Shown here piece by piece: positions 15,150 through 40,600 of a stretch of 64,000 nucleotides of DNA. The stretch spans positions 2,604,001 to 2,668,000 of the forward strand of contig NZ_AP022586.1 in assembly GCF_010731695.1 (NCBI RefSeq). The letters are read 5' to 3'. Source of the DNA: Mycolicibacterium litorale. GTDB taxonomy: Bacteria > Actinomycetota > Actinomycetes > Mycobacteriales > Mycobacteriaceae. Position numbers and translations under genes: made by a program. Every line of letters starts with the position of its first letter. Within the stretch, counting starts at the first letter, position 1. The notes below the pieces were generated by a model. It was not told where the DNA came from, did not search any database, and was given only the letters and a program-made list of their open reading frames with translations.

Positions 15150-15168
15150 TACAGTAAGCAATTCAGTA
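15150..15168. promoter_or_regulatory. 19-bp operator, copy 1 (degenerate)
   Basis: TACAGTAA-GCA-ATTCAGTA matches the island operator TACTGTAA-N3-TTACAGTA at 13 of 16 arm positions. It lies between the divergent LLM/P450 operon and the carboxyltransferase gene. On the minus strand it contains TACTGT, a TANNNT -10 for the LLM gene; TAAGGT (15167-15172) is a possible -10 for the carboxyltransferase gene. Confidence 0.55.
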
Positions 15169-15198
15169 AGGTCAACGACCGCGAGTGAGGACCGCCCC

Positions 15199-16695
15199 AT
15201 GACGGACGCCCAGGATTGGCAGGAGACGCTCGAGGATCTCGACCGTCGCCGCTCGCACGCGCACGGTATGGGCGGGCCCGAGCGGGTGGCCAGACACCAC
15301 GGCAAGGGCAGACTCGATGCCCGAGCGCGCATCGCCCGCCTGCTCGACCCGGACACGTTCTGTGAATTCGGCACCCTGGTCGGCGGCGACATCGCGGCCG
15401 ACGGGATCGTGGCGGGGTCGGGCCGCATCGGCGGCACACCGGTGATGGTCGGTGCCGAGGACTTCACGACGCTCGCGGGCAGTATCGGGCCGGGAGGCAA
15501 CGCGAAGCGGTACCGGCTCGCGGAATTGGCGCTGCGCAACAAGGTTCCGATGGTCATGCTGCTGGAAGGAGCGGGGTTCCGGCCCAGTGGCGAACACTAC
15601 GGGCGCACGCCGACCGACCTCATCGTGCAGGCGCAGTGCTCCGGGAAGGTGCCGACGGTGTCGGCGGTGCTGGGGCCGTCCGCCGGCCACGGTGCGCTGG
15701 TCGCGCCGGTGTGCGACTTCACCATCATGAGTGCCGGTGGCGCGATCTTCACCGCCGGCCCTCCCGTGGTCAAAGAGTCCACCGGAGAGGAGATCTCGAA
15801 GGAGAATCTGGGCGGTCCCGGGGTGGCGCTGGCCAGCGGGGTAATCCACAACGACGCCGAGGACGACGAGACCGTGATCGACGACATCCGCCGGTACCTG
15901 TCGTACTTCCCGTCGAGCGCGTGGTCGTATCCGCCCACCCGGCTCGCCGACGGCACCGCCGACCCGCGCCCCACGCCCGAACTCCTCGGAATCGTCTCGC
16001 GCGACAACCGCCACATCTACGACATGCGAACGGTGCTCGACGTCGTCTTCGACCGGCCGGACTGGTTCGAGGTGCAACCTCGGTTCGGTCGGGCGATCAT
16101 CTGCGCGCTGGCACATCTGGGCGGTTTCCCGGTCGCGGTGGTGGCGAACCAGCCGCAGGTGATGGCGGGTTCCATCGACTCCGATGCCGCGGACAAGGCC
16201 GCGCACTTCATCATGGTCGCCGACTCGTTCCACCTGCCCATCGTGTTCCTGGCCGACAATCCCGGGATGTTGCCGGGCAGCCGGTCCGAGCGCAGCGGGG
16301 TGCTGCGCAGCGGCGCCCGGATGTTCGCCGCCCAGACCGCCGCCTCGACCCTCAAGCTGCATGTGACGCTGCGCAAGGCATTCGGGTTCGGTTCGATGGC
16401 CATGTCCCTGTTGGGTTTCGACAATCAGGTGGCCACGTTCGCCTATCCCGGCGCCACCATGGGTGCGATGAGCGCCGCGGCGATGAGCCGGGCGACCCAC
16501 GCGGGAGAGGACTACGCCGAGGTCCTCAAGACCATGGAGCTGGAGGCCAGCTACCGCTCGGCCGGGCACCTCGGATTCGACGAACTCATCTCACCGGTCG
16601 AGACCCGTGACCGGTTGCTCGTGGCGCTACAGCACGGCGTCTTCAGCAGGCAGGCCGTCGCCGAACCGGTCAGCCGCACCTTCATCATGCCGTAG
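15199..16695 (+). CDS. acyl-CoA carboxylase carboxyltransferase (AccD-type) subunit
   Basis: Carboxyltransferase of 498 residues with two crotonase-like halves. The amino half has RLDARARIARLLDPDTFCEFG and LLEGAGFRPSGEHYGR; the carboxy half has FPVAVVANQPQVMAGSIDSDAADKAAHFIMVAD, IVFLADNPGMLPG and KAFGFGSMAMSLLG, the glycine-rich oxyanion stretches that bind acyl-CoA and carboxybiotin. No biotin carboxylase/BCCP gene is adjacent, so it must borrow an AccA-type subunit encoded elsewhere, or may be a decarboxylase-like relative. The ATG at 15199 follows GTGAGG; operator copy 1 lies 31 bases upstream. Confidence 0.85.
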   Translation: MTDAQDWQETLEDLDRRRSHAHGMGGPERVARHHGKGRLDARARIARLLDPDTFCEFGTLVGGDIAADGIVAGSGRIGGTPVMVGAEDFTTLAGSIGPGGNAKRYRLAELALRNKVPMVMLLEGAGFRPSGEHYGRTPTDLIVQAQCSGKVPTVSAVLGPSAGHGALVAPVCDFTIMSAGGAIFTAGPPVVKESTGEEISKENLGGPGVALASGVIHNDAEDDETVIDDIRRYLSYFPSSAWSYPPTRLADGTADPRPTPELLGIVSRDNRHIYDMRTVLDVVFDRPDWFEVQPRFGRAIICALAHLGGFPVAVVANQPQVMAGSIDSDAADKAAHFIMVADSFHLPIVFLADNPGMLPGSRSERSGVLRSGARMFAAQTAASTLKLHVTLRKAFGFGSMAMSLLGFDNQVATFAYPGATMGAMSAAAMSRATHAGEDYAEVLKTMELEASYRSAGHLGFDELISPVETRDRLLVALQHGVFSRQAVAEPVSRTFIMP

Positions 16696-16696
16696 T

Positions 16697-16745
16697 GATT
16701 TCGGCGTGCTCAGTCGCGCTGGGCGCGACCACGCACGCCGAAATC
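16697..16745. repeat. palindromic intergenic repeat, family A, second copy
   Basis: Arms GATTTCGGCGTGC and GCACGCCGAAATC (13 bp, perfect), inner stem GTCGCG/CGCGAC and a 5-base loop. It has the same architecture and much the same sequence as 6236-6284, and again lies exactly between the ends of two convergent genes. Confidence 0.8.
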
Positions 16746-16747
16746 GC

Positions 16748-17788
16748 TCATGAGCGGCGGTAGGCCTCGACGATCGGCGCGAGTTCGTCGGGTGTCGCCC
16801 CGTGCATGATCAGCGCATCGGCGCCGTAGTCGAACTCCTTGCGGATCCGCTCGACGCACTGCTGGGCCGACCCGGTCGCCGCCGGGGCCAGCCATTCGCC
16901 GGGGATCAGCGTCGCGATGTGTTCGATCTGCTGGGGTGTGGCTTTGTGGTCGATCCCGCCGGGAATGGAGGTCACCACCTCGTCCTCCCGAAACCGTTGC
17001 AGCACTGCGGGATCCCAGTCGTTGGTCTTGACCAGCAGGTCGCCGTAGCCCTGCAGGTAAGTGGCGAGCCGGGCGACGGTCTTCTTCAGCCGCAACTCCT
17101 CGGGCAGGTGATCGCCGACCGTGGCGAAGCACGACCACACCCGCACGTTGGCCGGATCGCGCCCCGCCCGCTCCGCGGCGTCCTTCACGGTCTTCACGCA
17201 CCGCTGCAGCGTCTCGGGGGTGAAGTAGGTGTGCAGGATGACGTCGTCGAAGGCACGCCCGCCGAGCGCGAGTGTCTGCGGCCCGAAGGCGACCAGGGCC
17301 AGCCTGATGTCCTCTTTGAAGTCCGGGTCGAGGAACAGCACCGGGTACTTGCCGAGCGGCCCGTCGTGGTTGAAGATCAGCTCACCCTGCCACAGGCGGC
17401 GCATCACCTGCGCGAAGTCCTCCATCTGCGCGGTCGTGACGGCCGGGATGCCGAAGGCGCCGTAGATGGCGCCGATGCCGCGGCCGATGCCGAGGGTGAA
17501 CCGCCCGCCGGACAGCCGGTGCATGGTCGTCGCCCACGATCCGGTGATCAACGGGTGACGGGTGTTGTGATTGGTTGCCGCGGTGGCGATCTGCATCCGC
17601 TCGGTCACCGCGCACGCGGCACCGACCAGCGACGACGCCTCCTTGACGTTCCAGCGTTCGGAGATGAACGCCGTCCCGAAGCCGAGCTGCTCGCCGCGCC
17701 GCGCCTCGTCCATCAGGGTGGCGGGTCCGTCGCCGCCCGCCCCGGCCAGCAGGTAGTAGCCGAGCTCGTCGAGTGTGCCCTCAGTCAA
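16748..17788 (-). CDS. F420-dependent LLM-class oxidoreductase
   Basis: LLM-fold protein of 346 residues: LGFGTAFISERWNVKEASSLVGAACAVTERMQIATAATNHNTRHPLITG and LSGGRFTLGIGRGIGAIYGAFGIP are characteristic. I recall TIGR03857 (named for MSMEG_2249) as the matching model. It would transfer hydride between F420 and an unknown substrate of the island. The start is TTG at 17788, overlapping the stop of the upstream NTF2-like gene as TTGA, a coupled but weak start. Last gene of a five-gene minus-strand operon starting at 21936. Confidence 0.87.
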   Translation of the reverse strand: MTEGTLDELGYYLLAGAGGDGPATLMDEARRGEQLGFGTAFISERWNVKEASSLVGAACAVTERMQIATAATNHNTRHPLITGSWATTMHRLSGGRFTLGIGRGIGAIYGAFGIPAVTTAQMEDFAQVMRRLWQGELIFNHDGPLGKYPVLFLDPDFKEDIRLALVAFGPQTLALGGRAFDDVILHTYFTPETLQRCVKTVKDAAERAGRDPANVRVWSCFATVGDHLPEELRLKKTVARLATYLQGYGDLLVKTNDWDPAVLQRFREDEVVTSIPGGIDHKATPQQIEHIATLIPGEWLAPAATGSAQQCVERIRKEFDYGADALIMHGATPDELAPIVEAYRRS

Positions 17789-18159
17789 TGCCAGACCCCT
17801 TGTTTGTAGCCACAGTTCCAGACCTCGGTGATCCTGCCGTCGACGACGCGGAACACCTCCATGCTGCCGATCGTCGTCTGCGTCCCGTCCTTCAGGGTCA
17901 TCGGCGACTGGTAGACGATCGCGACGTGTTCACCGTCGTCGCCGGCGACCACGAGGTTGAGCTCGAACCGCACGGTGTCGAACATCTCCCAGTGGTCGAC
18001 GATCCGCCGCACCGCCTGCTCGTGGGTGAGTGTCGTCGCCTCCCCCACACCGTGCCGAATCACGGTGCGGCCCAGCAGTTCGTCGGCGAGCGCGAAGTCA
18101 CGCTTGTTCCACACCGTCAGGTTATAGAGCTCGACGACGTGGCGGGCGGTCCGCGTCAT
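17785..18159 (-). CDS. SnoaL/NTF2-like domain protein
   Basis: Protein of 124 residues with an NTF2-like cone fold: NLTVWNKRDFALADELLGRTVIRHG at the start, and MEVFRVVDGRITEVWNCGYKQG at the end. Members are small isomerases, hydratases or ligand-binding proteins (ketosteroid isomerase, SnoaL cyclase, limonene epoxide hydrolase). The exact reaction is not readable. It is coupled at both ends: its ATG overlaps the hydrolase stop (ATGA) and its TGA overlaps the TTG of the LLM gene. GGGAGGTGAC precedes the ATG at 18159 and provides a good ribosome site. Confidence 0.82.
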   Translation of the reverse strand: MTRTARHVVELYNLTVWNKRDFALADELLGRTVIRHGVGEATTLTHEQAVRRIVDHWEMFDTVRFELNLVVAGDDGEHVAIVYQSPMTLKDGTQTTIGSMEVFRVVDGRITEVWNCGYKQGVWH

Positions 18160-19268
18160 GTCACCTCCCGGGACACCCGACGGAGGAAGCGTTCGGAAAC
18201 CCGCTGCACCCGGCCGGAGAGGATGTGGCCGACATGGCTGCCGTCGTGCCAGTACAGTTCGCCGCCCCACCGCTGGTGCAGTTCCTCGGCCGGTGCGCGC
18301 ATCGCCATGCGATCGTGCCAGGCGCCGACGATGAGCCGGCGTTCGGGCGGCGGCGCGGGCTGGACCGCCAGCAGATCCACCACCGACGACATCGCGGCCA
18401 CGGGGCCGGAGGTCAAGACCTCCGCGGTGGCGTCCGCGGAAGGTCCCCACCGGCTCAGGTGGTGGGCGATCATCGCGTTGAGGCCGAAGATCGGCGTGAA
18501 CACCGCGACGGCGTCGACCGTTCTCTCGAAGTGCGAGACCAGCGCGGCGACCGGACTGCCCATCGAGACACCGGACACGGCAAGAACAGTGGACTGCGGC
18601 ACCAGCCACCGCACGAGGGCCCGCACCTCGGAGACGGCGCGCATCATGCCTGCGACGTTGCCCAGTGGGTCCATGTTCGGGTACGGCGGCCACTGGGATC
18701 TGCGCGCTCCGTGGCCCGGCTGGATGGGGAGGGCGATGTTGTACCCGAGGTCGCGCTGCACCCGCGCGGCTCGGGAGAGCACCAGGTCCAACGGTTGGCC
18801 TTGGCCGGCGCCGTGAATCCACACCAGCCACGGCCGCGGTTCGTCGCCGTCGCGGATCAGGTGCACCGCGGCGGTGGCCGTACCGGCGAGCCCGGCATCG
18901 ACGAGGGTCGGTGGCAGCGCCGGGTCGTGGTCGAAACTGATCCGCTCGTAGCGCAGCCGGCCGAACCGCCGGCGCGACGACGAACGCACCCGCAGCGGGG
19001 TTGGTTCCGCATGCGCACGTTCGATGCCGAGTGCCGCCAGTTCCTCCGCTGCCGCCCCGCACGCGTCCGTCGATCTCACGAGGGCCGGTCCGGGGCCGGT
19101 GAGCGTCATCCCGGTCAGCGCCATCTCGTCGAGAGCCACCTCCCCCAGTCGCCGTATCCCGTTCGGAGAGAACACCGCACGGCCCGACCTCGCCACTTCG
19201 CGGTGGGCGCGCGGCAGCACCCCGGCGACATCGGCGACCGTCCGCCGAACGCGGTCGAGGGAGCTCAT
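18156..19268 (-). CDS. alpha/beta hydrolase
   Basis: Alpha/beta-hydrolase-fold protein of 370 residues. The oxyanion segment VWIHGAGQG, the nucleophile elbow GVSMGSPVAALV (catalytic Ser) and the late DGSHVGHIL (catalytic His) support an active esterase or lactonase. The first ~110 residues are an amino-terminal extension without a recognised motif. Directly downstream of a Baeyer-Villiger-like monooxygenase in the same operon, it could open the ester or lactone that such an enzyme makes; this is inference. ATG at 19268 overlaps the monooxygenase stop as ATGA. Confidence 0.82.
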   Translation of the reverse strand: MSSLDRVRRTVADVAGVLPRAHREVARSGRAVFSPNGIRRLGEVALDEMALTGMTLTGPGPALVRSTDACGAAAEELAALGIERAHAEPTPLRVRSSSRRRFGRLRYERISFDHDPALPPTLVDAGLAGTATAAVHLIRDGDEPRPWLVWIHGAGQGQPLDLVLSRAARVQRDLGYNIALPIQPGHGARRSQWPPYPNMDPLGNVAGMMRAVSEVRALVRWLVPQSTVLAVSGVSMGSPVAALVSHFERTVDAVAVFTPIFGLNAMIAHHLSRWGPSADATAEVLTSGPVAAMSSVVDLLAVQPAPPPERRLIVGAWHDRMAMRAPAEELHQRWGGELYWHDGSHVGHILSGRVQRVSERFLRRVSREVT

Positions 19269-20884
19269 CCCAGCGTGAATCCGGAATATCCCGCGGCGGC
19301 GATCTCGTCGCAGCGCCGGCGGTACTCGGGTAGTCCGGCGGTGTAGCCCATGTACATCCGTTTCTTGCCGGGGACGTTCCCGCCGTTGTACCAGGAGTTG
19401 CACGACGGATGCACCAGCACGGTCGGCGCCACCAGGGCGGTGGTGTGTTCGATCCACTGGGTCTGCGCATCGGGCAGTGCCTCGATCGTGCGGTGACCGT
19501 GAGCGCGCATATAGGTCAGGCAGTCCACGATCCAGTCCACGTGCTGTTCGAGCGCGGCCACGAAGTTGGTTGCCGCGCTGGGACTTCCGGGCCCCTGGAC
19601 GGTGAACAGGTTGGGGAAGCCGGCGACCTGCAACCCGAGGTAGGACACCGGCCCTTCGGCGGCCCACACGTCGCGCAACAGCACCCCGTCGCGCCCGCGG
19701 ACGTCGATGCGGCTCAGGGCACCGGTCATGGCGTCGAATCCTGTCGCGTACACGATGACGTCGAGGCCGTAGTGGCCCTGCTCGGTGTCGATGCCCGAGG
19801 GTGTCACGGAACGGATCGCGCCTCGGCGCAGGTCGACCAGCGTGACGTTGTCCCGGTTGAACGTCTCGTAATAGCCCTGGTCGATGATCGGCCGCTTGCA
19901 CGCGAACGGGTGGGTGGGCACCAGGGCGGCCGCCGTCTGCCGATCACGCACGATGCGGGCCACCGCCTCACCGTAGAGTTCGGCGGCCATCCGGTTGGCC
20001 TCGATGTCGAAGAAGACATCGCCCCAGTTCAGCGCGCCCATGACGCCGTGCTCGTCGACCGCCCGGCGCCGCTCCTCGGCCGAGGCGCTCTTCAGCGGCG
20101 GGCGGACCAGCATGTCGAGCAGCACCGAGAAGGCACTGAGCCGGGCCGCTCCCACCGGGTGTGCGCGCTGGGCCGCACGGATCTCGCCGTAGCGGGATTT
20201 GAGCTCGGCCAGCTCGCCGGGTGCGAATGGGCGGACCTGCCAGGGCAGCGTGTACGCCGGCGACCGTTGGAACACCACCAACTCGTCGGCTTCGCGTGCC
20301 ACGACGGGAATCATCTGCACCCCGGTGGACCCGGTGCCGATCACCCCGATCCGCTTCCCGCGCAGGTCGGCACCGTCGCGGGGCCAGCGGCCGGTGAACA
20401 GTGAGGTGCCGCCGAACGTGTCCATGCCCGCGATGTCGGGTTCGAGGGGTACGGACAGGATGCCGGTCGCGGCGACGACGAACGGCGCGACGTAGCGGGC
20501 GCCTGCCGCCGTCTCCAGCGTCCATTCGGCGGTGTCCTGGTCGAACGTCATCGACACGATCTCTGTGTCGAACTCGATGTCGCGACGCAAATCGAGGCGG
20601 TCGGCCACGAAGTTCAGATACGCCTCGATCTCGGGTTGGGCCGGCATGGTCTCGGTCCACTCCCACTCCTGCTCGATCTCCGCGGAGAAGCTGTAGGAGT
20701 ACTCGATGCTCTCGATGTCGCACCGCGCCCCGGGGTAGCGGTTCACCAACCAGGTGCCCCCGACGCCGTCCGCCCGCTCCACCACCAGGGTCCGCACGCC
20801 CAGTTCACGCAACCGGTGCAGGGCACAGAGACCGGAGAACCCGGCGCCCACGACCAGCACCTCGACGCGCGAGGCCTCGGTCAC
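19265..20884 (-). CDS. flavin-containing (Baeyer-Villiger type) monooxygenase
   Basis: Flavoprotein of 539 residues with two Rossmann motifs: VVGAGFSGLCAL near the amino end (FAD) and IGVIGTGSTGVQMIP near residue 175 (NADPH). The class-I fingerprint region reads FGGTSLFTGRWP (residues 157-168); the normally conserved histidine is Phe163, so activity may be atypical. Other conserved parts (RYPGARCDIES, GVGGTW, ATGFDA) are present. It would insert oxygen next to a ketone using FAD and NADPH. GTG at 20884 overlaps the SDR stop as GTGA. Part of the operon 21936-16748 with an ester hydrolase immediately downstream. Confidence 0.87.
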   Translation of the reverse strand: MTEASRVEVLVVGAGFSGLCALHRLRELGVRTLVVERADGVGGTWLVNRYPGARCDIESIEYSYSFSAEIEQEWEWTETMPAQPEIEAYLNFVADRLDLRRDIEFDTEIVSMTFDQDTAEWTLETAAGARYVAPFVVAATGILSVPLEPDIAGMDTFGGTSLFTGRWPRDGADLRGKRIGVIGTGSTGVQMIPVVAREADELVVFQRSPAYTLPWQVRPFAPGELAELKSRYGEIRAAQRAHPVGAARLSAFSVLLDMLVRPPLKSASAEERRRAVDEHGVMGALNWGDVFFDIEANRMAAELYGEAVARIVRDRQTAAALVPTHPFACKRPIIDQGYYETFNRDNVTLVDLRRGAIRSVTPSGIDTEQGHYGLDVIVYATGFDAMTGALSRIDVRGRDGVLLRDVWAAEGPVSYLGLQVAGFPNLFTVQGPGSPSAATNFVAALEQHVDWIVDCLTYMRAHGHRTIEALPDAQTQWIEHTTALVAPTVLVHPSCNSWYNGGNVPGKKRMYMGYTAGLPEYRRRCDEIAAAGYSGFTLG

Positions 20885-21936
20885 AGGGCGATCACCTGCT
20901 CGTTGCGGTCGCGGCGCTCGACGTAGAATCGCGCCGCGCGGCGGATCGCCTCCGCGGTGGGGCCGGGCCGCCAGCCGAGGTCCCTGGTCGCCTTGCCGTG
21001 GTCGGCGGGTGAGGTCAGCGCGATCAACCGGGCGGAGGCGGGGTTGACCGGGAAGTCGGTGCGCAACAGCCGGTTCGACGCACCCGCGATCGCCGCCGCG
21101 AGATGGACGAGCGCCATCGGCACACCGAACCGGGGTGGCTTCGCACCCACCGCCTCGGCCGCGATCGTGAACATCTCGCGCTGGGTCATGAAGCGCTCGG
21201 AGACGATGTACCGCTCACCGGTCCGGCCGCGGTCGGCGGCCAGCACGAGGGCCTGGGCGGCGTCGTCGATGTCCACCACTTCGGCCCCGACGCCGCGGAT
21301 GTAGCAGGGCATCTTGCCGAACGCGACCAGCGCGACCAGGGCGCCCTGCCTGGGTTGCCAATCCGGCGGGCCGTACGGGTTCGACACGCACATCGCCACC
21401 GCCGGCAGACCACGCTCACGCGCGTAGCGCAGTACGAGGTCCTCCGCCTGGCGCCGGGACTCGATGTACGGGCCGCCCTTGCCGCTCCAGTTGAACGGTG
21501 TGTCCTCGTCGACCGTCTCGCCGTTCACGCCGACGGCGACGGTCCCGATGGTGCTCAGGAACACGAAGCGTCGCAGCTCCGCCCGCACCGCGATCTCCAG
21601 AACGCCACGCAGACCCTCGACGTTGGTCGCGAACAGTGGTGCCGGGTCTGCCAGGTGCGCCCTGGTGTCGACGACGCAGTAGAAGACCACGTCCCGGTCG
21701 TCCATTGCCGCCTCGACCGCCTCGGTGTCGAAGATGTCGCCGTACCGCCGTTCCACGTCGAGCCCGTCGATGCCTCGGGTGGAACTGCTGCGGCGCAACA
21801 GGACCCGGACGTCATCACCCTCGGCCACCAGCCGCCGCACCACCGCGGCACCCACATTTCCGCTCGCGCCGAGCACCAGTGCCCGCCGGCGCGCCGGTGT
21901 GCCGTCCATCCGCGGGTCCCATCTGTCGAAGCGCAT
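20881..21936 (-). CDS. extended SDR, NAD-dependent epimerase/3-beta-HSD-like
   Basis: Extended short-chain dehydrogenase of 351 residues: LVLGASGNVGAAVVRRL (NAD binding, residues 19-35), FVFLSTIGTVA, and the active-site region GPYIESRRQAEDLVLRYA. The catalytic pair is Tyr157 and Arg161 where Lys is normal, an unusual change. It resembles 3-beta-hydroxysteroid dehydrogenases and nucleoside-sugar epimerases. First gene of a five-gene operon; its promoter overlaps operator copy 2, whose minus-strand TACTGT would start the mRNA about 28 bases before the ATG. A second in-frame ATG at 21909 is possible. Confidence 0.82.
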   Translation of the reverse strand: MRFDRWDPRMDGTPARRRALVLGASGNVGAAVVRRLVAEGDDVRVLLRRSSSTRGIDGLDVERRYGDIFDTEAVEAAMDDRDVVFYCVVDTRAHLADPAPLFATNVEGLRGVLEIAVRAELRRFVFLSTIGTVAVGVNGETVDEDTPFNWSGKGGPYIESRRQAEDLVLRYARERGLPAVAMCVSNPYGPPDWQPRQGALVALVAFGKMPCYIRGVGAEVVDIDDAAQALVLAADRGRTGERYIVSERFMTQREMFTIAAEAVGAKPPRFGVPMALVHLAAAIAGASNRLLRTDFPVNPASARLIALTSPADHGKATRDLGWRPGPTAEAIRRAARFYVERRDRNEQVIAL

Positions 21937-21957: not shown

Positions 21958-21976
21958 TACTGTAACTCTTACAGTA
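21958..21976. promoter_or_regulatory. 19-bp operator, copy 2 (perfect)
   Basis: TACTGTAA-CTC-TTACAGTA, a perfect inverted repeat with 8-bp arms. TACTGT occurs on both strands as a -10 (TANNNT), so one repressor dimer would cover both divergent promoters: the SDR operon on the left and the Rieske remnant plus ligase on the right. Confidence 0.8.
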
Positions 21977-21977
21977 G

Positions 21978-22364
21978 TTGACCGAAACGCAGAAACTCCG
22001 ATCGGATGGGTGCGGTATGTTGATCCACAGCCACTTCTCCGGGCTCGGCTTCGCGGTCAGCGTCTTCGAGGGCTCCTCGAACCATCGACTGATCTTCGCC
22101 TGCACCCCTGTCGACGACGAAGTGTCCGACATGTTCTATTCGATCTGGTGGCCGAAGGTCGCCGGGGACTCCTCCGACGCCCCGCCCGAGGACGTGCGCG
22201 CGCGGGTGGAGAAACAGTTCCTGCGCACCGTTTGGGACGATCTGGACATCTGGCGGTATCAGCGCTACGTGGAGCGCCCCGCGCTGGCGAAGATCGACGC
22301 GAAACCCTATATGGCGATGCGCGAGTGGGCCAAGCAGTTCTACGACGTGCCCGCCTCGGTATGA
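21978..22364 (+). pseudogene. carboxy-terminal remnant of a Rieske-type oxygenase
   Basis: A frame of up to 128 residues resembling only the end of Rieske non-heme-iron oxygenase alpha subunits: FEGSSNHRLIFACTPVDDE, SIWWPKVAG and DDLDIWRYQRYVERPALAKIDAKPYM. The [2Fe-2S] Rieske domain and most of the catalytic domain, including the iron ligands, are missing. The homology starts right after operator copy 2, as if a 5' deletion brought the remnant next to a promoter. Possible starts are TTG 21978 and ATG 22017, neither with a good ribosome site. Probably not enzymatically active; it may persist only as leader of the ligase mRNA. Confidence 0.6.
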
Positions 22365-25251: not shown

Positions 25252-25682
25252 GTCAACCTCTTCGGTGTTCGGCCGAGCCGGTGGCGGGTGCGGGAACGGG
25301 CCCGGCGCAGCGCGAGGTCGGCACCCAGGCGCATGGGCCCGGTGAACGGCATCGCCGCGCGTCCGGTGATGCTGAACGGCAGGTCGCTGCCGACCACCGA
25401 TCGGTGATGGCTGAACGTGTCGAAACCCGCCTTGCCGTGGTAGGCGCCCATCCCGCTGCGCCCGACGCCGCCGAACGGCGCGGCGGACGGGATCATCTGC
25501 GCGGCGAAGTCGTTGCGCGCGACCCCGCCACTGCGGGTGGTGCGCACGAAGGTGCGGAACTGCGTGTCGTCGGGTCCGTACCAGTACGCCACCAGCGGTG
25601 GGGGCCGCCGGTTGATGTGGTCCACCGCCTCGGCCGGCCGGCGGTATCCGCGGACCACGAGCACCGGACCGAAGACCTCCTT
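25248..25682 (-). pseudogene. carboxy-terminal remnant of an aldehyde dehydrogenase
   Basis: In-frame sequence of about 145 codons matching only the end of coniferyl-aldehyde-type aldehyde dehydrogenases: KEVFGPVLVVRGYRRP, ALYW-like VAYWYG, SGGVARNDF and PFGGVGRSGMGAYHGKAGFDTFSH. The catalytic cysteine and NAD-binding domain are absent. Homology begins at the Lys codon 25682, directly preceded by an in-frame TGA, and 37 bases from operator copy 3. A GTG at 25664 could start a 138-residue fragment because AAGGAGG, part of the old KEV codons, lies upstream. Translation could still help the coupled P450 downstream. Confidence 0.75.
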
Positions 25683-27014: not shown

Positions 27015-27036
27015 GCGGGATCACGGAGGATGCACG

Positions 27037-32992: not shown

Positions 32993-34197
32993 CAGCGCGC
33001 CGCGACGTTGACGCCGATCAGGTCCAGTGCGTTGTCCCGCATCACTTTCCGGGTGTCCTCGGCACTGAATTCCGGGAACTGCGGGATGTCCGCGGTGAAG
33101 GCCATCGGGTCGGCCAGCCCCTCGCCGTGCGGCCAGTCCGAGCCGAACAGGATCCGGTCCACCCCGATGGTCTCGGCGAGCAGTTTCACGTCGTCCTCGT
33201 AATAGGGCGCGATCCAGACGTTGTTCTTGAGCTGCTCGACCGGGTCTTCCGTGTAGTGGTACGGCGCGGTGTTGGCGGACTTCTTCAACCGCTTGATCAG
33301 CCGATAGACGAAGTAGGAGCCGTTCTCGATGCTGGCCACCTTCAGCTTCGGGTGCCTGGTGAACACCTGGTGGACGATCATCGACGCCATCGCATCGTGA
33401 ATGGCGCGGTCGTCCAGCAGCACCTGCTCGAGCGGATCCTTCTTGCCGAACCCCTCGAACGTCGCCTTGCCGCCCCACAGCGCCGCGATCGCGAGGTATC
33501 CGCTGTCGGACAGGTGGAAGATCACCGGCACACCGGCTTCGGCCAGGCGGGCCCACACCGGATCGTGTGCGGGGTCCCCGAGCGACCGCGGTTTGACCAG
33601 CCCGGGCACCGGTGCCGGCCGCACGCAGACGATCTTGGCGCCGCGCGCGAGCACGAACTCGACCTCGTCGATCGCCTTGGCGGGGTCGGCCAGCGAGATG
33701 ATCGGCGCGGACAGGAACCTGTGGTCGGGGCGGTCGAAACCCCAGTCCTCGTCGAGCCACAGATTGAACGCGTGCACCGAGGCCATGGTCGCCTCGATGT
33801 CGTGTTTGAGCGCCTCCTCGACGCCGCAGGCAAAGGTCGGGAGCATGAACACGGTCTCGAGGTTCTGCTTGTCGAGGATCTTCACCCGGGCGTCGCGGTG
33901 CTGATACTCCGGGTGATCGCTGAGCCGGTCGACTTTCATCAACGACGCCGGGTCGACGCCCTCGGGGATCTCGCCGCGGAACAGCAGATCCAGGCAGCCC
34001 GGCTCGATGATCGGATCGAACGTCGGGTTGGGGATGAAGTGGTTGACGACCCCACCCATCACCGCGAGCGTGCGCTTACCGTCTTGGACCATCTGGACCC
34101 CACGGCGTTTGAACTCCTTGGGCAGGTGGCGCGTGAACGCGTCGAGCGGTTCGTAGTAGTGGTTGTCGACGTCGATCGCCATGTAGTCGAGCGTCAT
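32992..34197 (-). CDS. amidohydrolase-2 family protein
   Basis: Amidohydrolase of 401 residues. The start MTLDYMAIDVDNHYYEPLDAFTRHL has the D-H-x-x-E-P form common in actinobacterial members; AGVPVIFHLSDSG, HPKLKVASIENGSYFVYRLIKR and the metal-binding DRILFGSDWPHGEGLADP are intact. Likely a metal-dependent decarboxylase or hydrolase acting on a carboxylated or diketo intermediate. The longer upstream frame is not used: ATG at 34197 overlaps the crotonase stop (ATGA) and GGAGGAACTCCG precedes it. Confidence 0.85.
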   Translation of the reverse strand: MTLDYMAIDVDNHYYEPLDAFTRHLPKEFKRRGVQMVQDGKRTLAVMGGVVNHFIPNPTFDPIIEPGCLDLLFRGEIPEGVDPASLMKVDRLSDHPEYQHRDARVKILDKQNLETVFMLPTFACGVEEALKHDIEATMASVHAFNLWLDEDWGFDRPDHRFLSAPIISLADPAKAIDEVEFVLARGAKIVCVRPAPVPGLVKPRSLGDPAHDPVWARLAEAGVPVIFHLSDSGYLAIAALWGGKATFEGFGKKDPLEQVLLDDRAIHDAMASMIVHQVFTRHPKLKVASIENGSYFVYRLIKRLKKSANTAPYHYTEDPVEQLKNNVWIAPYYEDDVKLLAETIGVDRILFGSDWPHGEGLADPMAFTADIPQFPEFSAEDTRKVMRDNALDLIGVNVAAR

Positions 34198-35009
34198 CGG
34201 AGTTCCTCCTGCAATACCGGGAAGTTCGGCGGCCGTTTCTCGAGGAAGCTCACGATTCCCTCGACGACGTCGGGACGCAGCAGCGATTCGCCCATCAGTT
34301 TCTCCGCTCTGGCGCTGGCGTCGACGACGTCGCGTTCGGCGTCGCCGTAGGTCTGTGCCTTGATGATCGCCAGTGAGGCCGGCGAGCAGTGCGCGGCGAT
34401 GTCTTCGGCGTATTCCATGGCGCGGGCCATGAGCAGATCCGGCGCGACGACGTCCTTGACCAGCCCGAGGTGCGCCGCCTCGTCGGCGTAGAACGTCCGC
34501 CCGGTCAGCAGCAGATCCATGGCGGCGCCGAACCCGACGAGCCGCGGCAGGATCCACGAGATCCCGTACTCGGCGATCAGGCCGCGCCGCGCGAAGGCGG
34601 TCGCGAACTTCGCGCCGTCGGCGGCGAACCGGACGTCGCACATGAGTGCGTGAGTGAGGCCGATCCCGACACAGGCGCCGTTGATCGCCGCGATGACCGG
34701 CTTGCGCAGCGCCGTCAGGAAGTGCGGATGCCGCTCCCCGACGATCTTGCTGACGTCCGGCGCCTCTCCGTCCCCGTTACCCAGCGAGTCGCCGATGCCC
34801 GACATCGAACCCAGGTGTGCGCCTGCGCAGAACGCCCGGCCGCTGCCGGTGAGCACGATCGCGCGCACCGCGGGGTCCGTTTCGGCACGGTCCATCGCCG
34901 CGTAGAACCCCGACGAGATGTCACCACCCCAGGCGTTGAGCCGTTCGGGACGGTTCAACGTGACCACGGCGACGCCCGCCGGGGTGACCTCGTAGAGGAC
35001 GGCCTCCAC
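34194..35009 (-). CDS. enoyl-CoA hydratase/isomerase family protein
   Basis: Crotonase of 271 residues: FCAGAHLGSMSG (oxyanion), INGACVGIGLTHALMCDVRFAADGAKFATAFARRGLIAEYGISWILPRLVG with a glutamate in the catalytic position. Probably hydrates an enoyl-CoA formed by the dehydrogenase pair encoded downstream. GTG at 35009 is about 10 bases after GAGGAG. First gene of the operon; TACAGT on the minus strand at 35060-35055, inside operator copy 4, predicts a 38-base leader. Confidence 0.86.
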   Translation of the reverse strand: MEAVLYEVTPAGVAVVTLNRPERLNAWGGDISSGFYAAMDRAETDPAVRAIVLTGSGRAFCAGAHLGSMSGIGDSLGNGDGEAPDVSKIVGERHPHFLTALRKPVIAAINGACVGIGLTHALMCDVRFAADGAKFATAFARRGLIAEYGISWILPRLVGFGAAMDLLLTGRTFYADEAAHLGLVKDVVAPDLLMARAMEYAEDIAAHCSPASLAIIKAQTYGDAERDVVDASARAEKLMGESLLRPDVVEGIVSFLEKRPPNFPVLQEELR

Positions 35010-35053: not shown

Positions 35054-35072
35054 TACTGTATAACTATCGGTA
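35054..35072. promoter_or_regulatory. 19-bp operator, copy 4 (degenerate)
   Basis: TACTGTAT-AAC-TATCGGTA; the left arm matches 7 of 8 and the right arm 5 of 8 consensus positions. It overlaps the predicted -10 of the crotonase-amidohydrolase-ligase-dehydrogenase operon. The rest of the 119-base gap downstream of the SDR gene shows nothing else. Confidence 0.5.
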
Positions 35073-35128: not shown

Positions 35129-35926
35129 TCAGGTGAAGTCGCTGCCGCCGTCGACGTTGATGTTCGCCCCCGTCATGTACGAGTTGCGCCGGGAGGCAAG
35201 GAACGCCGCGACGGGGCCGATCTCCGACGGCAGACCGGCCCGCGGCAGGTGCGCGGGATGCCCGAAGTGTTCGGTGATGGCGTCCATCAGCCGGTACGGA
35301 TCGCTGCCGTCCACGCCGATCGCCTCCGCCCATCCGGTGAGCGCTTCCGAGGCGATGCTGCCCGGCGACACGACGTTGACCAGGATCTCGTCGGCGGCCA
35401 GCGACAGCGACAGGTTCTTCGACACACTGGTGACCATCGCCTTCGCCGCCGTGTAGGCGGGCAATGTGGCGCTCTGGCGCTGCGTCGACTGGGCGGAGAA
35501 GTTGACGATGCGGGCCCACGATGCGTTGCGCAACAACGGGAGTGCCGATCGCACGCACCGCACCATGCCCAGCACACCGTCTTCGACCGCGGTTCGCCAT
35601 TGGTCGTCGGTGAGTGACTCGAAATCCCCGCGGACGTCCGGTCCAACGGTGTTGACCAGGACGTTCAGCGCGTCCCCCCACCGCTGCGCCAGCTCGGCGA
35701 ACGCGCTGTCCACCTGCTCACCGTCGCGCACGTCGGCGACGATGCCGATGGCGTCAGGACTTCCGCAGCCGGTGAGTTCGGCCGCGGCGCGGGACAGCGC
35801 CTCCGCCGTGCGGCCCACCACCGCCACCTTCGCGCCGTCCTCGGCGAGGCACCGGGCGGTGGCCAGACCCATCCCGCGGCCTCCGCCGACCACCACCGCG
35901 GTCGCGCCGGCCAGTCCGAGGTCCAC
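35129..35926 (-). CDS. short-chain dehydrogenase/reductase
   Basis: Classical SDR of 265 residues: VVVGGGRGMGLATARCLAEDGAKVAVVGR (NAD(P) site), NTVGPDV in the place of NNAG, IVNFSAQSTQRQSATLPAYTAAKAMVTS with Ser-Tyr-Lys, and VVSPGSIASEAL. The NTVG variant of the NNAG motif is slightly unusual. Likely a hydroxyacyl-CoA or alcohol dehydrogenase of the island. Start is taken as GTG 35926, four bases after the stop of the upstream crotonase; further in-frame starts lie inside that gene. Co-transcribed with the crotonase from 36692. Confidence 0.82.
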   Translation of the reverse strand: MDLGLAGATAVVVGGGRGMGLATARCLAEDGAKVAVVGRTAEALSRAAAELTGCGSPDAIGIVADVRDGEQVDSAFAELAQRWGDALNVLVNTVGPDVRGDFESLTDDQWRTAVEDGVLGMVRCVRSALPLLRNASWARIVNFSAQSTQRQSATLPAYTAAKAMVTSVSKNLSLSLAADEILVNVVSPGSIASEALTGWAEAIGVDGSDPYRLMDAITEHFGHPAHLPRAGLPSEIGPVAAFLASRRNSYMTGANINVDGGSDFT

Positions 35927-35930
35927 CGGG

Positions 35931-36692
35931 TCAGGTACCGGTCCAATTCGGTGCCCGCTTCTCCGCGAACGCGATGGCACCCTCTTTCGCGTCGTTCGAC
36001 GAGAACACCGGGATGATGAGTTCCATTTGCCGCGACCACATCTCGGATTCGCTCCACTCCGCGGAGCGGACCAGGATCTCCTTGGTCACGGCCACGGCCA
36101 GCGGACCGTTCGCGGTGATGCGTTCGGCGAGTTCGATGGCGCCGGCCAGCGCCTGCCCCGGTTCGGTCACCTTGTTGACGAAACCCCACGCCGCACCCTG
36201 TTCGGCGGAGAAGCTCTCACCGGTAAGGGCCAGTTCGAGCGCCTTCTGGTACGGGATGCGCCGCGGCAGCCGCAGGAGGCCCCCGCCCGCGGCGACCAGT
36301 CCGCGCTTGACCTCCGGAATGCCGAACTTCGCCGCACTCGACGCCACCACGAGGTCGGTGGCCAGCACGACCTCGGTGCCGCCCGCGAGTGCATACCCTT
36401 CGACCGCGGAGATCAGCGGCTTGCGCGGCGGCTTCTCGGTGAATCCGATTCCGCGCCCCGGGATGTCGACCCGCTCGCCCGCCGCGAACGCCTTGAGGTC
36501 CATCCCCGCGCAGAAGTTGCCGCCCGCTCCGGTCAGCACGGCAACGGAAAGGCTTGTGTCGCTGTCGAGTTCGTCGACCGCGTCCGCCAGCCCCTTGCTG
36601 ACCGCGAAGTTGACCGCGTTGCGGGCCTCCGGCCGGTTGATGGTGATGATCAGTGTGCGCCCCTGGCGCTCCACGAGAACCTCGTCTGCCAC
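35931..36692 (-). CDS. enoyl-CoA hydratase
   Basis: Crotonase of 253 residues: INRPEARNAVNFAV, FCAGMDLKAFAAGE, EGYALAGGTEVVLATDLVVASSAAKFGIPEVKRGLVAAGGGLLRLPRRI with both catalytic-position glutamates (GGTE and IPEV). A conventional active hydratase in sequence. GTG at 36692 is preceded by AAAGGCGAACGG. TATAGT on the minus strand at 36738-36733, inside operator copy 5, is a good -10 giving a 33-base leader. Leads a two-gene operon with the SDR; divergent from the TetR gene. Confidence 0.87.
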   Translation of the reverse strand: MADEVLVERQGRTLIITINRPEARNAVNFAVSKGLADAVDELDSDTSLSVAVLTGAGGNFCAGMDLKAFAAGERVDIPGRGIGFTEKPPRKPLISAVEGYALAGGTEVVLATDLVVASSAAKFGIPEVKRGLVAAGGGLLRLPRRIPYQKALELALTGESFSAEQGAAWGFVNKVTEPGQALAGAIELAERITANGPLAVAVTKEILVRSAEWSESEMWSRQMELIIPVFSSNDAKEGAIAFAEKRAPNWTGT

Positions 36693-36731: not shown

Positions 36732-36750
36732 TACTATATGGCTTACTGTT
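36732..36750. promoter_or_regulatory. 19-bp operator, copy 5 (degenerate)
   Basis: TACTATAT-GGC-TTACTGTT, 12 of 16 arm positions match the consensus. It lies in the gap between the crotonase operon and the divergent TetR gene, overlapping TATAGT (leftward) and TACTGT (rightward) -10 candidates, as expected for autoregulation. Confidence 0.55.
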
Positions 36751-36917: not shown

Positions 36918-37670
36918 GTGGCCAAACAAGCGACCGCGCAGAAGCGGCCGCGCCGTGAGCGCGGGTCGATCAATCCCGAGGACATCATCAAAGGCGCGTT
37001 CGAACTCGCCGAAGAGGTGTCGATCGACAACCTCAGCATGCCGTTGCTCGGCAAGCATCTCGGCGTCGGCGTCACGAGCATCTACTGGTATTTCCGCAAG
37101 AAGGACGACCTCCTCAACGCGATGACGGATCGGGCGTTGCGGCAGATCGTGTTCGAGTCACCCTATGTCGACGCCGCGAACTGGCGGGAGTCGCTGCACA
37201 GCCACGCGCACAACATGCGCAAGACCTTCATGACCAGCCCCATTCTGTGTGATCTCGTGCTGATCCGCGGAGCGCTGTCCGCCAAGGCGTTGCGGCTGGG
37301 TCTCGAGCAGATGGAGGCCGCGGTGGCCGGGCTCGTCGAAGCGGGCCTGTCCCCCGAGGACGCATTCGACACTTACTCCGCGGTGTCCGTGCACGTCCGG
37401 GGGTCGGTGGTGCTCGCGCGCCTGTACGAGAAGACCCGATCGCTCGACGGCCCGGACTTCAGCGCCGGGGAAGCAGCCACCATCGACTCCGAGACCATGC
37501 CGCTCATGGCGGCCCTGAGCGCCAAGGGTCATCACATCGGGGTGCCCAACACGATGAACTTCGAATACGGGCTCAACTGCATCCTCGACCACGCCGCCCG
37601 CCTCATCGACGAGGGCAGGCCGGCGAAGAAGGCGTCCGCACGACGGAAGACCTCGGCTACACCTCGATGA
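36918..37670 (+). CDS. TetR-family regulator, candidate master repressor of the island
   Basis: TetR protein of 250 residues. The DNA-binding part reads IIKGAFELAEEVSIDNLSMPLLGKHLGVGVTSIYWYFRKKDDLLNAMTD; the rest is an alpha-helical ligand domain with a TetR_C-like pattern. GGAGGT lies 7 bases before GTG 36918, which is preferred to ATG 36903 (that ATG is part of the ribosome site). It is the only TetR gene inside the island and stands beside an operator copy shared with the divergent crotonase operon, so it is the best candidate to bind TACTGTAA-N3-TTACAGTA, with an acyl-CoA or pathway intermediate as inducer. Its 3' end overlaps the convergent thiolase gene by 14 bases. Confidence 0.87.
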   Translation: MAKQATAQKRPRRERGSINPEDIIKGAFELAEEVSIDNLSMPLLGKHLGVGVTSIYWYFRKKDDLLNAMTDRALRQIVFESPYVDAANWRESLHSHAHNMRKTFMTSPILCDLVLIRGALSAKALRLGLEQMEAAVAGLVEAGLSPEDAFDTYSAVSVHVRGSVVLARLYEKTRSLDGPDFSAGEAATIDSETMPLMAALSAKGHHIGVPNTMNFEYGLNCILDHAARLIDEGRPAKKASARRKTSATPR

Positions 37671-38832
37671 CGACCGCGCCGCCCTGGCCGCCACCGGCGC
37701 ACATCGCGGCGACACCGATGCCGCCACCCCGCCGCTGCAGTTCGTAGACCAGCGTGGTGACCATGCGAGCGCCGGACGCCGCGATGGGATGGCCCAGACT
37801 GCAACCACTTCCGGAGAAGTTGACCTTCTCCTCGTCCAGGCCGTACTCACGGCACGCCGCGATGGGCACCGACGCGAACGCCTCGTTGATCTCCCACAGC
37901 GCGACGTCGCCCGGGGTGAGCCCGGCCCGGTCCAGCACCTTGCCGATGACCTTGACCGCGCCGAGCCCGGTGTCGCGCGGCGCCACGCCCGCCGACGCCC
38001 ACGCACGCACCTTCGCCAGCACCGACAGGCCCTCGGCCTCGGCGTACCCACGCTCGACGAGCACGGTGGCCGCCGCCGCGTCGTTGGTTCCGCTGCTGTT
38101 GCCCGCCGTGATCGAGAAACCCTCGATCTCGGGATGGAGCACCTTGAGGCCGGCCAGCTTCTCCGCGGTGGTGTCCCGGCGCGGATGCTCGTCGACGCTG
38201 AAGTCGACCACCGTGCCGTCGGGCTGTTCGACCTTCAGCGGGACGATCTCGTCGACGAACTTCCCCGCGTCCATCGCGGCGATCGCGCGCTGATGCGACC
38301 GCGCCGCCCATGCGTCCATCTCCTCTCGGGTGATGCCCGCGGCCTGCGCGGTATTCCACCCGACGGTGATCGACATGTCACGGGTCGGCGCGTCCGGGGT
38401 CTCGACGTGGGTGGGTGGCATCCAGCGCTCCTCGAACTTCAGTTCGGGACCGGGGATGCGCCAGTTCACCAGCGGCGTCATCGACAGCGACTGCACGCCT
38501 CCGGCCACCAGCACGCGCTCCATACCGGACCCGATCTGCGCCGCGGCGTTGCCGATCGCGGTGAGGCTGCCCGCGCAGTGCCGGTTGACCGACTGACCGG
38601 GAACATGCTGGAGACCCGTGGCGTCCGCCGCGTAGCGCGCGAGATCGCCTCCGCCGTAGTGGGATTCGGCGAAGATGATGTCGTCGATCGCGTTGGGGTC
38701 CACCCCGGAGCGCCGGATGACCTCGGGCAGCACCGTGGTGATCAGCGTTTCCGGCGGAGTGTTCACCAGCGTGCCCTTGAAGGACCGTCCGATGGCTGTG
38801 CGAACGGCGCCGACGATGACGGGTGTGGACAT
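37657..38832 (-). CDS. acetyl-CoA acetyltransferase (thiolase)
   Basis: Thiolase of 391 residues with Cys86 in VNRHCAGSLTAIGNAA, GNSSGTNDAAAATVL, NEAFASVPIA, GCSLGHPIAASGARM and the terminal CAGGGQGGAVVIE motif containing the second cysteine. All catalytic parts of a degradative beta-ketothiolase are present. It would release acetyl-CoA or propionyl-CoA in the last step of a beta-oxidation round. Single gene; TACCGT on the minus strand inside operator copy 6 gives a -10 with about 56 bases of leader. Confidence 0.92.
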   Translation of the reverse strand: MSTPVIVGAVRTAIGRSFKGTLVNTPPETLITTVLPEVIRRSGVDPNAIDDIIFAESHYGGGDLARYAADATGLQHVPGQSVNRHCAGSLTAIGNAAAQIGSGMERVLVAGGVQSLSMTPLVNWRIPGPELKFEERWMPPTHVETPDAPTRDMSITVGWNTAQAAGITREEMDAWAARSHQRAIAAMDAGKFVDEIVPLKVEQPDGTVVDFSVDEHPRRDTTAEKLAGLKVLHPEIEGFSITAGNSSGTNDAAAATVLVERGYAEAEGLSVLAKVRAWASAGVAPRDTGLGAVKVIGKVLDRAGLTPGDVALWEINEAFASVPIAACREYGLDEEKVNFSGSGCSLGHPIAASGARMVTTLVYELQRRGGGIGVAAMCAGGGQGGAVVIEV

Positions 38833-38888: not shown

Positions 38889-38907
38889 TACAGAAACGGT
38901 ATCAGTT
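38889..38907. promoter_or_regulatory. 19-bp operator, copy 6 (degenerate)
   Basis: TACAGAAA-CGG-TATCAGTT, 11 of 16 arm positions match. It overlaps the predicted thiolase -10 (TACCGT, minus strand) in the short gap between the thiolase and the crotonase gene that ends at 38935. Confidence 0.45.
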
Positions 38908-38934
38908 GTAAGGCGACCGCACTACCGCCAGGGG

Positions 38935-39822
38935 TCACTCGACGTCGGGTTCGGGCACGTGGAAGTGCTCGTCACGCAGCCGGAACGCCTCTCTCGTTCC
39001 GTGCTGGGCACGGGTCTTGACGAAGTTGAACTCACCGGGGGCGAACTGCAGGTTGGTCCCGTAGGCGTGGAACAGGTAGCCGGCCACCTCCTCGCCCTGA
39101 TAGGCCTGGCTCTGCTCGACCAGGCGGAACGCCTCTTTGGCGATCACGACGCCGTCGGCAGGCATCTTCGCGGCCTTCTCTGCCCAGTAGCGCGCGCGGG
39201 CGGGTACGGCGGAGGCGGCACAGGTTTCGGTGAACACCCCGAGGTGCTCGACAGCGCCTGCCTCGATGATGTCGCCGGTCAACAGCAGTCGGCGGGCCAG
39301 CACCGGACCGAGCCGATGGAAGAACATGTGCAGGCTGCCGAGCGCGGGTCCGAGGAAGCGGGTCGCGGGCATGCCGATCCTGGTGTCACGGCCGATCACC
39401 GAGATGTCGGTCATCAGTGCCATCTCGAAACCGCCGCCGAGTGCGAAGCCGCTGATCTCGCCGACCGTCACCTTCGGGAAACCCAGCAGATCGTGGTAGA
39501 AGCCGAACGACTTGCGGTCCACGGCGAGCCGCCTGCGCTGGCTCGGCCGGGTCCTGGCAGGTGCCTCACCGTGCTCTTGTCCGCCATACCAGCCGTACGC
39601 GTTGTTCATGTCGGCGCCGGTGCTGAACACCCCTTCGGCGCCGCGCAACAGCACGACGGTCAGATCGTCGTCCTCGGCGACGGTGTCGAGGTGGCTCGCG
39701 AGCGTCTCGCGCATCGCCGCGTCATAGGAGTTGCGTTGCGCGGGGTTGTTGAGCGTGATCGTCGCGATCCGCTTCTCGCGGTCGACGTCGAGGAGCACAC
39801 GGTCATCGGAGATCGCCGTCAT
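38935..39822 (-). CDS. enoyl-CoA hydratase/isomerase family protein
   Basis: Crotonase of 295 residues, longer than usual because of a segment after the oxyanion motif: FSTGADMNNAYGWYGGQEHGEAPARTRPSQRRRLAVD. The core ISGFALGGGFEMALMTDISVIGRDTRIGMPATRFLGPALGSLHMFFHRLG has Glu in the first catalytic position and lacks a clear second one. Isomerase or hydrolase activity is as likely as hydration. ATG at 39822 overlaps the thioesterase stop (ATGA). Second gene of a two-gene operon. Confidence 0.83.
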   Translation of the reverse strand: MTAISDDRVLLDVDREKRIATITLNNPAQRNSYDAAMRETLASHLDTVAEDDDLTVVLLRGAEGVFSTGADMNNAYGWYGGQEHGEAPARTRPSQRRRLAVDRKSFGFYHDLLGFPKVTVGEISGFALGGGFEMALMTDISVIGRDTRIGMPATRFLGPALGSLHMFFHRLGPVLARRLLLTGDIIEAGAVEHLGVFTETCAASAVPARARYWAEKAAKMPADGVVIAKEAFRLVEQSQAYQGEEVAGYLFHAYGTNLQFAPGEFNFVKTRAQHGTREAFRLRDEHFHVPEPDVE

Positions 39823-40502
39823 GGCGCTGGTTCCTTCCCTGTGGCCGGTCGGCTCTGCGGCCGCCGCGCCCCGAACCGCGCCCCGACGAGCCGCTCGGGC
39901 GGCAGCGCCACCGTGGTGGCCTCCCCCGTGCACAGCAGCTCGTCCTCGAGGCGTAGGTGTGCAATGGACGTGATCCCGCGTTCGGCGGTGGTCCTCTCGA
40001 TCTCGAACCGCAGCTCCGTCAGTAACGGCGTGGGCCTGCGGTAGGTCAGGTTCAGTGACCGGGTTTTACCGGAAAGCCCGGTTGCGCAGTTGTGGTGCTG
40101 GATGACGCAGTCGAAGAACACCGCCAGGAAACCGCCGTGGACCAGCCCCGGTGGACCCTCGTAGGGCAGCGGGAAGCTCACCCGGCCCGCTGCTGCGGTC
40201 CCGTCGATGTGGTCGAGGCGGTAGGCCGGGAAGCAGGGGTTGAACGCCCCGCAGTCGTAGGCGTGATCGAGATACACCCGACGCTCGTCACCGAGGTCGT
40301 CGCCGACGCGGGGTGCGGCGTCGGCCGGCGCGACCGCGCTCAGTTCGCGTTCCCACGTGGCCAGCCGGGCGGTCATCTCGTCGACGGCGGGGTGCGGGTG
40401 CTCGAGCGCCAGCAGCACACCGGTCACGCGCCGGAGTGCAGCGGCTGCGGCGACCGTCTGGGCCAGCGGCTGTTCACCGAACCGGACTACGGGCTGGTCC
40501 AT
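39819..40502 (-). CDS. hotdog-fold acyl-CoA thioesterase (PaaI-like)
   Basis: Protein of 227 residues. The hotdog domain is in the carboxy half: FPLPYEGPPGLVHGGFLAVFFDCVIQHHN, with HGG and the Asp typical of PaaI/4HBT thioesterases, then GLSGKTRSLNLTYRRPTPLLTELRFEIERT. The first ~80 residues are extra and of unknown role. It may release CoA from dead-end thioesters of the pathway. ATG 40502 has GAGAGG upstream; ATG 40544 is an in-frame alternative. Divergent from the crotonase operon at 40625 across operator copy 7. Confidence 0.8.
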   Translation of the reverse strand: MDQPVVRFGEQPLAQTVAAAAALRRVTGVLLALEHPHPAVDEMTARLATWERELSAVAPADAAPRVGDDLGDERRVYLDHAYDCGAFNPCFPAYRLDHIDGTAAAGRVSFPLPYEGPPGLVHGGFLAVFFDCVIQHHNCATGLSGKTRSLNLTYRRPTPLLTELRFEIERTTAERGITSIAHLRLEDELLCTGEATTVALPPERLVGARFGARRPQSRPATGKEPAP

Positions 40503-40581
40503 CCGCCGCCTCTCGTCGGTCCGATCCGTTCCGCGCACCGGCATTACTTGCTAACTTGTACAGGATATCAATCGAATTGCC

Positions 40582-40600
40582 TACTGTATGGCCAACCGTA
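40582..40600. promoter_or_regulatory. 19-bp operator, copy 7 (degenerate)
   Basis: TACTGTAT-GGC-CAACCGTA, 12 of 16 arm positions match. TACTGT (40582-40587) is a -10 for the plus-strand crotonase-ligase operon, predicting a 30-base leader before GTG 40625. Confidence 0.55.

Follow-up and report, generated by a model that had tools for sequence, protein, structure and literature searches.

Sequence comparison indicates that a 19-bp palindrome, TACTGTAA-N3-TTACAGTA, made up of two 8-bp half-sites, stands ahead of no fewer than six groups of degradation genes in Mycolicibacterium litorale and its relatives. The element was studied in a window of 64 kb, that is, the whole stretch of DNA analyzed (C1:2604001-2668000 of a 5.58-Mb, single-contig genome; positions without a prefix are those of the window). 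The same window contains a gene for a TetR-family protein (36918-37670), and we consider it probable that the palindrome is the operator of this protein and its close subfamily and serves to repress a cluster for alicyclic catabolism.

Copies of the palindrome in the window

The initial annotation had listed seven copies, perfect at 21958 and almost perfect at 25719, each intergenic and overlapping a TANNNT -10 hexamer. All seven 19-mers were recovered at exactly the positions and with the sequences claimed, the two best copies having 0 and 1 mismatch to the consensus, and all seven are indeed intergenic and ahead of a called gene start (Table 1). At the sequence level, six of the seven claimed promoters are secure, with the hexamer present in the expected register, in both orientations at 21958, 25719, and 36732 and in one orientation at 15150, 35054, and 40582. 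The copy at 38889 was dropped because it was not listed up to an E value of 10 when the window was searched with a model of relatives' sites (see below), because only 6 of the 33 thiolase-upstream regions read at its orthologues held a match with up to 4 mismatches, and because it lacks TANNNT on either strand.

The sites exceed chance by far. At up to 3, 4, and 5 mismatches, the window holds 3, 6, and 9 matches, compared with means of 0, 0.04, and 0.55 in first-order Markov simulations of 64 kb; the 3 copies at the strictest threshold compare with none in 100 shuffles, and the 9 matches at the loosest include two inside called genes, at 16986 and 59601. In the whole genome, up to 3 mismatches are found at four places, namely the three in the window and C1:574823, against one for the reversed control. 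A degenerate pattern, chosen knowing the sites, occurs 12 times in the genome, with 6 occurrences in the 25-kb stretch spanned by the claimed copies, against 13 in all for the reversed control.

The search model (R1) was built from 41 of 57 places in relatives, each entered in both orientations, 16 weaker, overlapping, or incidental places having been excluded by hand. It contains none of the window sites but does hold their orthologues, one of which has the same 19 letters as 21958, and is thus held out by genome and not by kind. Over the whole genome, at an E value of up to 10, it returned only 21958, 25719, and C1:574823, the first two ranking highest. Over the window alone, it returned these two and 40582 (E 0.6), followed by 35054, 36732, and 15150 (E 5 to 8).

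Conservation in relatives

Across the genus, a match with up to 2 mismatches is present in 109 of 148 genomes, with up to eight per genome and a total of 369 places; the reversed control yields 60, spread over 41 genomes. Of the individual copies, that at 15150 recurs as the same 19-mer between orthologous genes in relative G081, the genes at 21958 have orthologues preceded by perfect or near-perfect sites in several relatives, and sites orthologous to 25719 are likewise found in several relatives. For 35054, 36732, and 40582, a comparison of 80 named loci surrounding TetR orthologues showed that the orthologous sites keep the letters particular to each copy and that conservation is restricted to the 19 bp. 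Footprints were found at 66, 78, and 67 of the 80 loci, respectively, with 1.90, 1.70, and 1.77 bits per position versus 0.52, 0.46, and 0.78 in the 40-bp flanks; several of the loci that miss a footprint site end early, and the footprint was read at each locus's best match, a choice that favors the site. The sites are conserved in relatives, a point that the initial annotation had asked to be checked.

A second check that it had proposed, whether matches are as frequent in coding sequence, likewise went in favor of the regulon as far as it was run. In ten relatives' clusters together with the window, 77 of the 79 sites with up to 4 mismatches are intergenic in DNA that is about 93% coding, and the other two lie at gene starts in relative G028. 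Every one of the 79 lies no more than 400 bp from a gene start, the median distance between site centre and nearest start being 47 bp; 53 lie between divergent starts, and 16 perfect copies with both half-sites kept are among those found in these eleven clusters.

The TetR protein and its tie to the palindrome

The product of 36918-37670 scores 46.4 bits with PF00440 and 40.9 bits with PF02909 (gathering thresholds, 24 and 21), and a structure model of modest confidence shows an all-helical TetR fold that comes closest, among solved structures, to TetR classes. Among named proteins, the nearest is the TetR of Mycolicibacterium baixiangningiae (91%). The fold and C-terminal family are those of TetR(B/D), and tetO is a palindromic operator of geometry similar to that of the 19-bp motif. 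The protein differs from TetR(B/D) in an identity of only about 20% and in having no tetracycline efflux gene seen among its neighbors in the window, and it falls below the NF010319 cutoff for tetracycline resistance repressors (70.3 versus 265 bits).

The proposal that this TetR is the best candidate repressor is supported by conservation that extends over the genus and into other genera. A TetR match was found in 118 of 148 genus genomes, and the palindrome with up to 2 mismatches in 104 of these 118 versus 5 of the remaining 30 (Fisher P, 9e-14), where absence of a TetR match means none at an E value of up to 1e-20 among the scored candidates, at most 18 per genome, and ten TetR-less genomes were assigned by elimination. 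Palindrome places numbered 363 versus 54 for the reversed control in genomes with a TetR match and 6 versus 6 in those without.

The evidence from other genera is stronger than this co-occurrence within the genus. In other genera of the family, 11 of 16 TetR loci have a site within 1.5 kb (up to 3 mismatches, C or T allowed at position 4), and all 21 loci outside the genus together gave 15 matches versus 2 for the reversed control. The Rhodococcus plasmid pYLL1, which encodes a TetR of 43% identity, carries one site with 3 mismatches and four with 4, tending to TACCGTAA-N3-TTACGGTA. According to the gene positions of the record (our gene finder called few genes there), they adjoin the TetR gene, hydratases, a thiolase, and dehydrogenases in an order different from that of the window. 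In all site-bearing members with a readable helix, the recognition helix reads VGVTSIYWYF or departs from it at one residue, a comparison that covered the aligned orthologues, the second cluster TetR of relatives, and the Rhodococcus protein.

More than one TetR match is present in 33 of the 118 genomes, not all of them in the cluster. In some relatives, a second cluster TetR of 50 to 60% identity is found, and the two proteins may be two sensors that share one operator. At three loci (L167, L172, and L178), the second TetR, of about 50% identity and with nearly the same DNA-reading helix, lies behind a cytochrome P450 (P450) gene and a perfect palindrome.

Evidence against the assignment and alternative readings

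A number of results weigh against assigning the palindrome to this TetR. At exactly 4 mismatches, the 80 named loci gave 93 matches, against 76 for the reversed control; with counts so near control, the weak copies stand on orthologous position and not on number. The cluster amidohydrolase is present in 107 of 146 genomes, each with a TetR match, and because its distribution is the same, linkage confounds and weakens the co-occurrence of TetR and palindrome within the genus. No site was found within 1.5 kb of the TetR gene in 5 of the 16 family-level loci and all 5 class-level loci; relatives G050 and G088 lack a site in 20 kb although their TetR, at about 45% identity, carries the same helix, and G421, which shares the helix, lacks one within 1.5 kb. 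Nor was there a clear -35 signal at the sites.

A further set of observations concerns a P450 gene about 2 Mb from the window (C1:573567-574769), which is preceded by the 2-mismatch site at C1:574823. The regulon had been called local, and mostly it is, save for this candidate further site, which does not track with the TetR. G054 and G067, both without a TetR match, retain the distal site with 2 mismatches. Allowing up to 3 mismatches, the site was found in 12 of the 44 TetR-bearing genomes and in 2 of the 5 that lack the TetR, a count that covers 50 of the 116 genomes in which that P450 is present (the best 30 loci and 20 picked by hand, among them three chosen because the TetR was absent or only distant). 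A TetR gene falls inside the stretch read around this P450 in the window genome (G000), G012, G054, and, weakly, G067, its place not being constant, and none was seen in the stretch read around it in G014. The distal P450 gave no support when used as an independent check on the TetR assignment, and its site was not counted; it may answer to another protein, and the pairing of TetR and site may not be exclusive. The surrounding region (C1:556000-595999; L237 and L238) is another catabolic cluster, in which genes named by eye include P450s, small ferredoxin-like proteins, and Rieske-type and amidohydrolase-like genes.

The persistence of that site in two genomes without a TetR match is one reason to consider that the operator is real and its binder another regulator, the protein at 36918-37670 being a mere neighbor with its own site. 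The binder might then be a TetR encoded at another locus, the second TetR seen in relatives' clusters, or a GntR/FCD protein, and a GntR/FCD gene is indeed present at 47563-48231, with another in one relative's cluster. We regard this as unlikely, if the most serious of the alternatives. In the window genome, only 36918-37670 matches at an E value of up to 1e-20 (18 of 43 candidates scored) and yet the sites remain; the palindrome tracks the TetR subfamily into other genera and onto the Rhodococcus plasmid; and the near identity of the DNA-reading helices means that a second TetR may share the operator with the first.

The operator reading has also to be set against a shared element that is mainly a conserved -10 promoter for a common sigma factor or activator. 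TACTGT/TACAGT fits TANNNT, and the gene-facing halves do keep the hexamer: at degenerate sites with 3 to 5 mismatches, TANNNT is kept in 47 of 98 gene-facing halves and in 3 of 22 other halves (P, 0.004), a count that ignores shared ancestry and from which in-gene sites were excluded beforehand. A 19-bp dyad whose two half-sites are preserved in 16 perfect copies, however, is more than a promoter by itself requires, and the concentration of degenerate matches in a single 25-kb stretch likewise speaks against this explanation, which we consider improbable. Chance and an over-reading of degenerate copies do account for 38889 and for the coding matches at 16986 and 59601, and the model scores of 15150, 35054, and 36732 are by themselves level with, and no better than, that of a coding match at 59604, but with the shuffles against it for the three best copies and orthologous recurrence and footprints for the others, chance is unlikely for six of the seven copies and has very little to commend it overall.

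Proposed mode of action

The preferred reading is that of an operator for the TetR, and the mode of action is most likely that of a repressor: intact half-sites are TANNNT hexamers, six of the seven window copies have such a hexamer facing a gene, and degenerate copies keep it on the gene side. As to binding, repression, inducer, and substrate, we infer the following course. A TetR dimer would bind the two half-sites and, because an intact half-site doubles as a TANNNT -10 hexamer (TACAGT/TACTGT), would cover the flanking promoters on one or both sides and block RNA polymerase. The site at 36732 would make the TetR autoregulatory. A compound of the pathway, perhaps a coenzyme A (CoA) thioester, would release the protein and turn on a cluster that degrades an alicyclic skeleton, terpenoid- or steroid-like, by oxidative, CoA-dependent steps.

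Genes of the cluster

A gene finder based on codon usage called 58 genes in the window, and those searched are mostly enzymes of CoA-dependent catabolism. The estimate of about 30 genes under control agrees with gene order, which gives about 32 if 38889 is counted, two of them stubs. Judged from gene order, the thiolase gene downstream of 38889 may be served by read-through from the promoter at 40582 instead. Clues to the substrate come from the cluster P450, nearest to P450terp; from the flavin monooxygenase, nearest to pentalenolactone D synthase and far under the cutoff of that family; and from relative G004, which has a full KshA-like Rieske oxygenase, an aldehyde dehydrogenase, and a molybdopterin oxidoreductase. 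In the window, the KshA-like and aldehyde dehydrogenase stubs directly adjoin the two best palindromes (21958 and 25719). Since only the ends of these genes are left beside the best sites, the regulon is partly decayed here while its operators persist.

Table 1. Sites and genes of the proposed regulon in the window
Feature	Position	Strand	Remarks
Operator copy, TACAGTAAGCAATTCAGTA, 3 mismatches	15150-15168		Between divergent 14079-15137 (-) and 15199-16695 (+); weak match to relatives' model, E 5-8
Operator copy, perfect palindrome	21958-21976		Between 20881-21909 (-) and KshA stub 22017-22364 (+)
Operator copy, 1 mismatch	25719-25737		Between aldehyde dehydrogenase stub 25248-25664 (-) and CoA-transferase 25788-27014 (+)
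Operator copy, TACTGTATAACTATCGGTA, 4 mismatches	35054-35072		Before minus-strand operon 28297-35009; weak model match, E 5
Operator copy, TACTATATGGCTTACTGTT, 4 mismatches	36732-36750		Between 35931-36674 (-) and TetR gene (+); weak model match, E 6
Claimed copy, TACAGAAACGGTATCAGTT, 5 mismatches, not supported	38889-38907		Missing from model search, few upstream matches, without TANNNT
Operator copy, TACTGTATGGCCAACCGTA, 4 mismatches	40582-40600		Between 39819-40502 (-) and operon from about 40625 (+); model E 0.6
Probable operon: P450 (closest solved, P450terp/CYP108), luciferase-like monooxygenase	12847-15137	-	
Carboxyl transferase, biotin-dependent carboxylase type	15199-16695	+	
Probable operon: epimerase/3-beta-hydroxysteroid dehydrogenase-type short-chain dehydrogenase/reductase (SDR), Baeyer-Villiger-type flavin monooxygenase, no-Pfam protein, SnoaL-like protein, luciferase-like protein	16748-21909	-	
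Stub, C-terminal part of KshA-like Rieske oxygenase	22017-22364	+	Full length in relatives
Acyl-CoA ligase	22400-24049	+	
P450 and C-terminal aldehyde dehydrogenase stub	24046-25664	-	Stub 25248-25664; full length in relatives
CoA-transferase family III and lipid-transfer-type thiolase	25788-28182	+	
Probable operon: enoyl-CoA hydratase, amidohydrolase, acyl-CoA ligase, amidohydrolase, two acyl-CoA dehydrogenase-type proteins	28297-35009	-	
SDR and enoyl-CoA hydratase	35129-36674	-	Divergent from TetR
TetR-family repressor (TetR_N and TetR_C_1), proposed operator binder	36918-37670	+	Pfam domains, structure model of modest confidence
Thiolase	37657-38832	-	
Enoyl-CoA hydratase and no-Pfam protein	38935-40502	-	
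Probable operon: three enoyl-CoA hydratases, three AMP-binding ligases	40625-47588	+	Start chosen by eye; gene finder start 40721

Two further observations were made outside the cluster. A TetR-type protein encoded at 61971-62621 scores above the NCBIfam cutoff for ScbR-family autoregulator-binding proteins (171 versus 150 bits), which is unexpected in a mycobacterium, and 1.2 kb at 54043-55216 has no called gene, though open reading frames are present.

Relation to known systems and significance

By analogy, the circuit would be of an ordinary kind, that of a KstR-like catabolic repressor regulon. KstR2 is reported to have a 14-bp operator, AnCAAGnnCTTGnT, with 3 sites and a 15-gene regulon, and the KstR operator is also given as a 14-bp palindrome (PMC3068626). 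The likeness to KstR2 as depicted there lies in TetR-family control, a palindrome between divergent genes near their start codons, a site at the regulator's own gene, and a single CoA-dependent catabolic cluster, and the difference lies in those figures as against 19 bp, six secure sites, and about 30 genes in the window. KstR shares TetR-family control, in its case of sterol catabolism. Neither AnCAAGnnCTTGnT nor the KstR operator pattern TNNAACNNGTTNNA has an exact match in the window, in line with the statement that the KstR and KstR2 sites differ from the present one.

A further TetR-family system, Rv0767c with its motif X, was considered as the same system; two reports describe a palindrome at P450, aldehyde dehydrogenase, and SDR operons in a mycobacterium grown on phytosterol (PMC6593523 and PMC4482099). 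A conserved palindrome, TGGACACATGTCCA, is present upstream of Rv0768 orthologues (L145, L146, L148, L149, and L153; nine loci were compared, three of them read on the opposite side of the gene) and probably renders the published motif X in letters. Rv0767c was rejected as the same system, as the region upstream of the Rv0768 orthologue of the present genome has TGGACACATGTCCA, and the best match to the 19-bp motif there has 6 mismatches. A description of the 19-bp motif was not found among the literature matches listed, which cover open-access text, published logos being images, and the circuit is apparently undescribed.

Taken together, these results tentatively suggest a wider picture, which we hold with clearly less confidence than the operator assignment itself. 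The palindrome would define a third large catabolic regulon of mycobacteria beside those of KstR and KstR2, present in most genus genomes examined. Operator and two divergent -10 elements would be merged in one 19-bp palindrome, read by the VGVTSIYWYF subfamily of TetR proteins; in some species, two paralogues per cluster would provide two ligand sensors for one operator, and the letters would be altered to TACCGTAA on the Rhodococcus plasmid.

The effector of KstR2 is an intermediate of the pathway, HIP-CoA (PMC6593523), so that the ligand of the TetR at 36918-37670 could point to the substrate. The sites are ready material for a promoter-reporter test. If the assignment is true, a 30-gene oxidative pathway carried by most of the mycobacteria examined would gain a defined operator, a candidate repressor, and a list of its genes.

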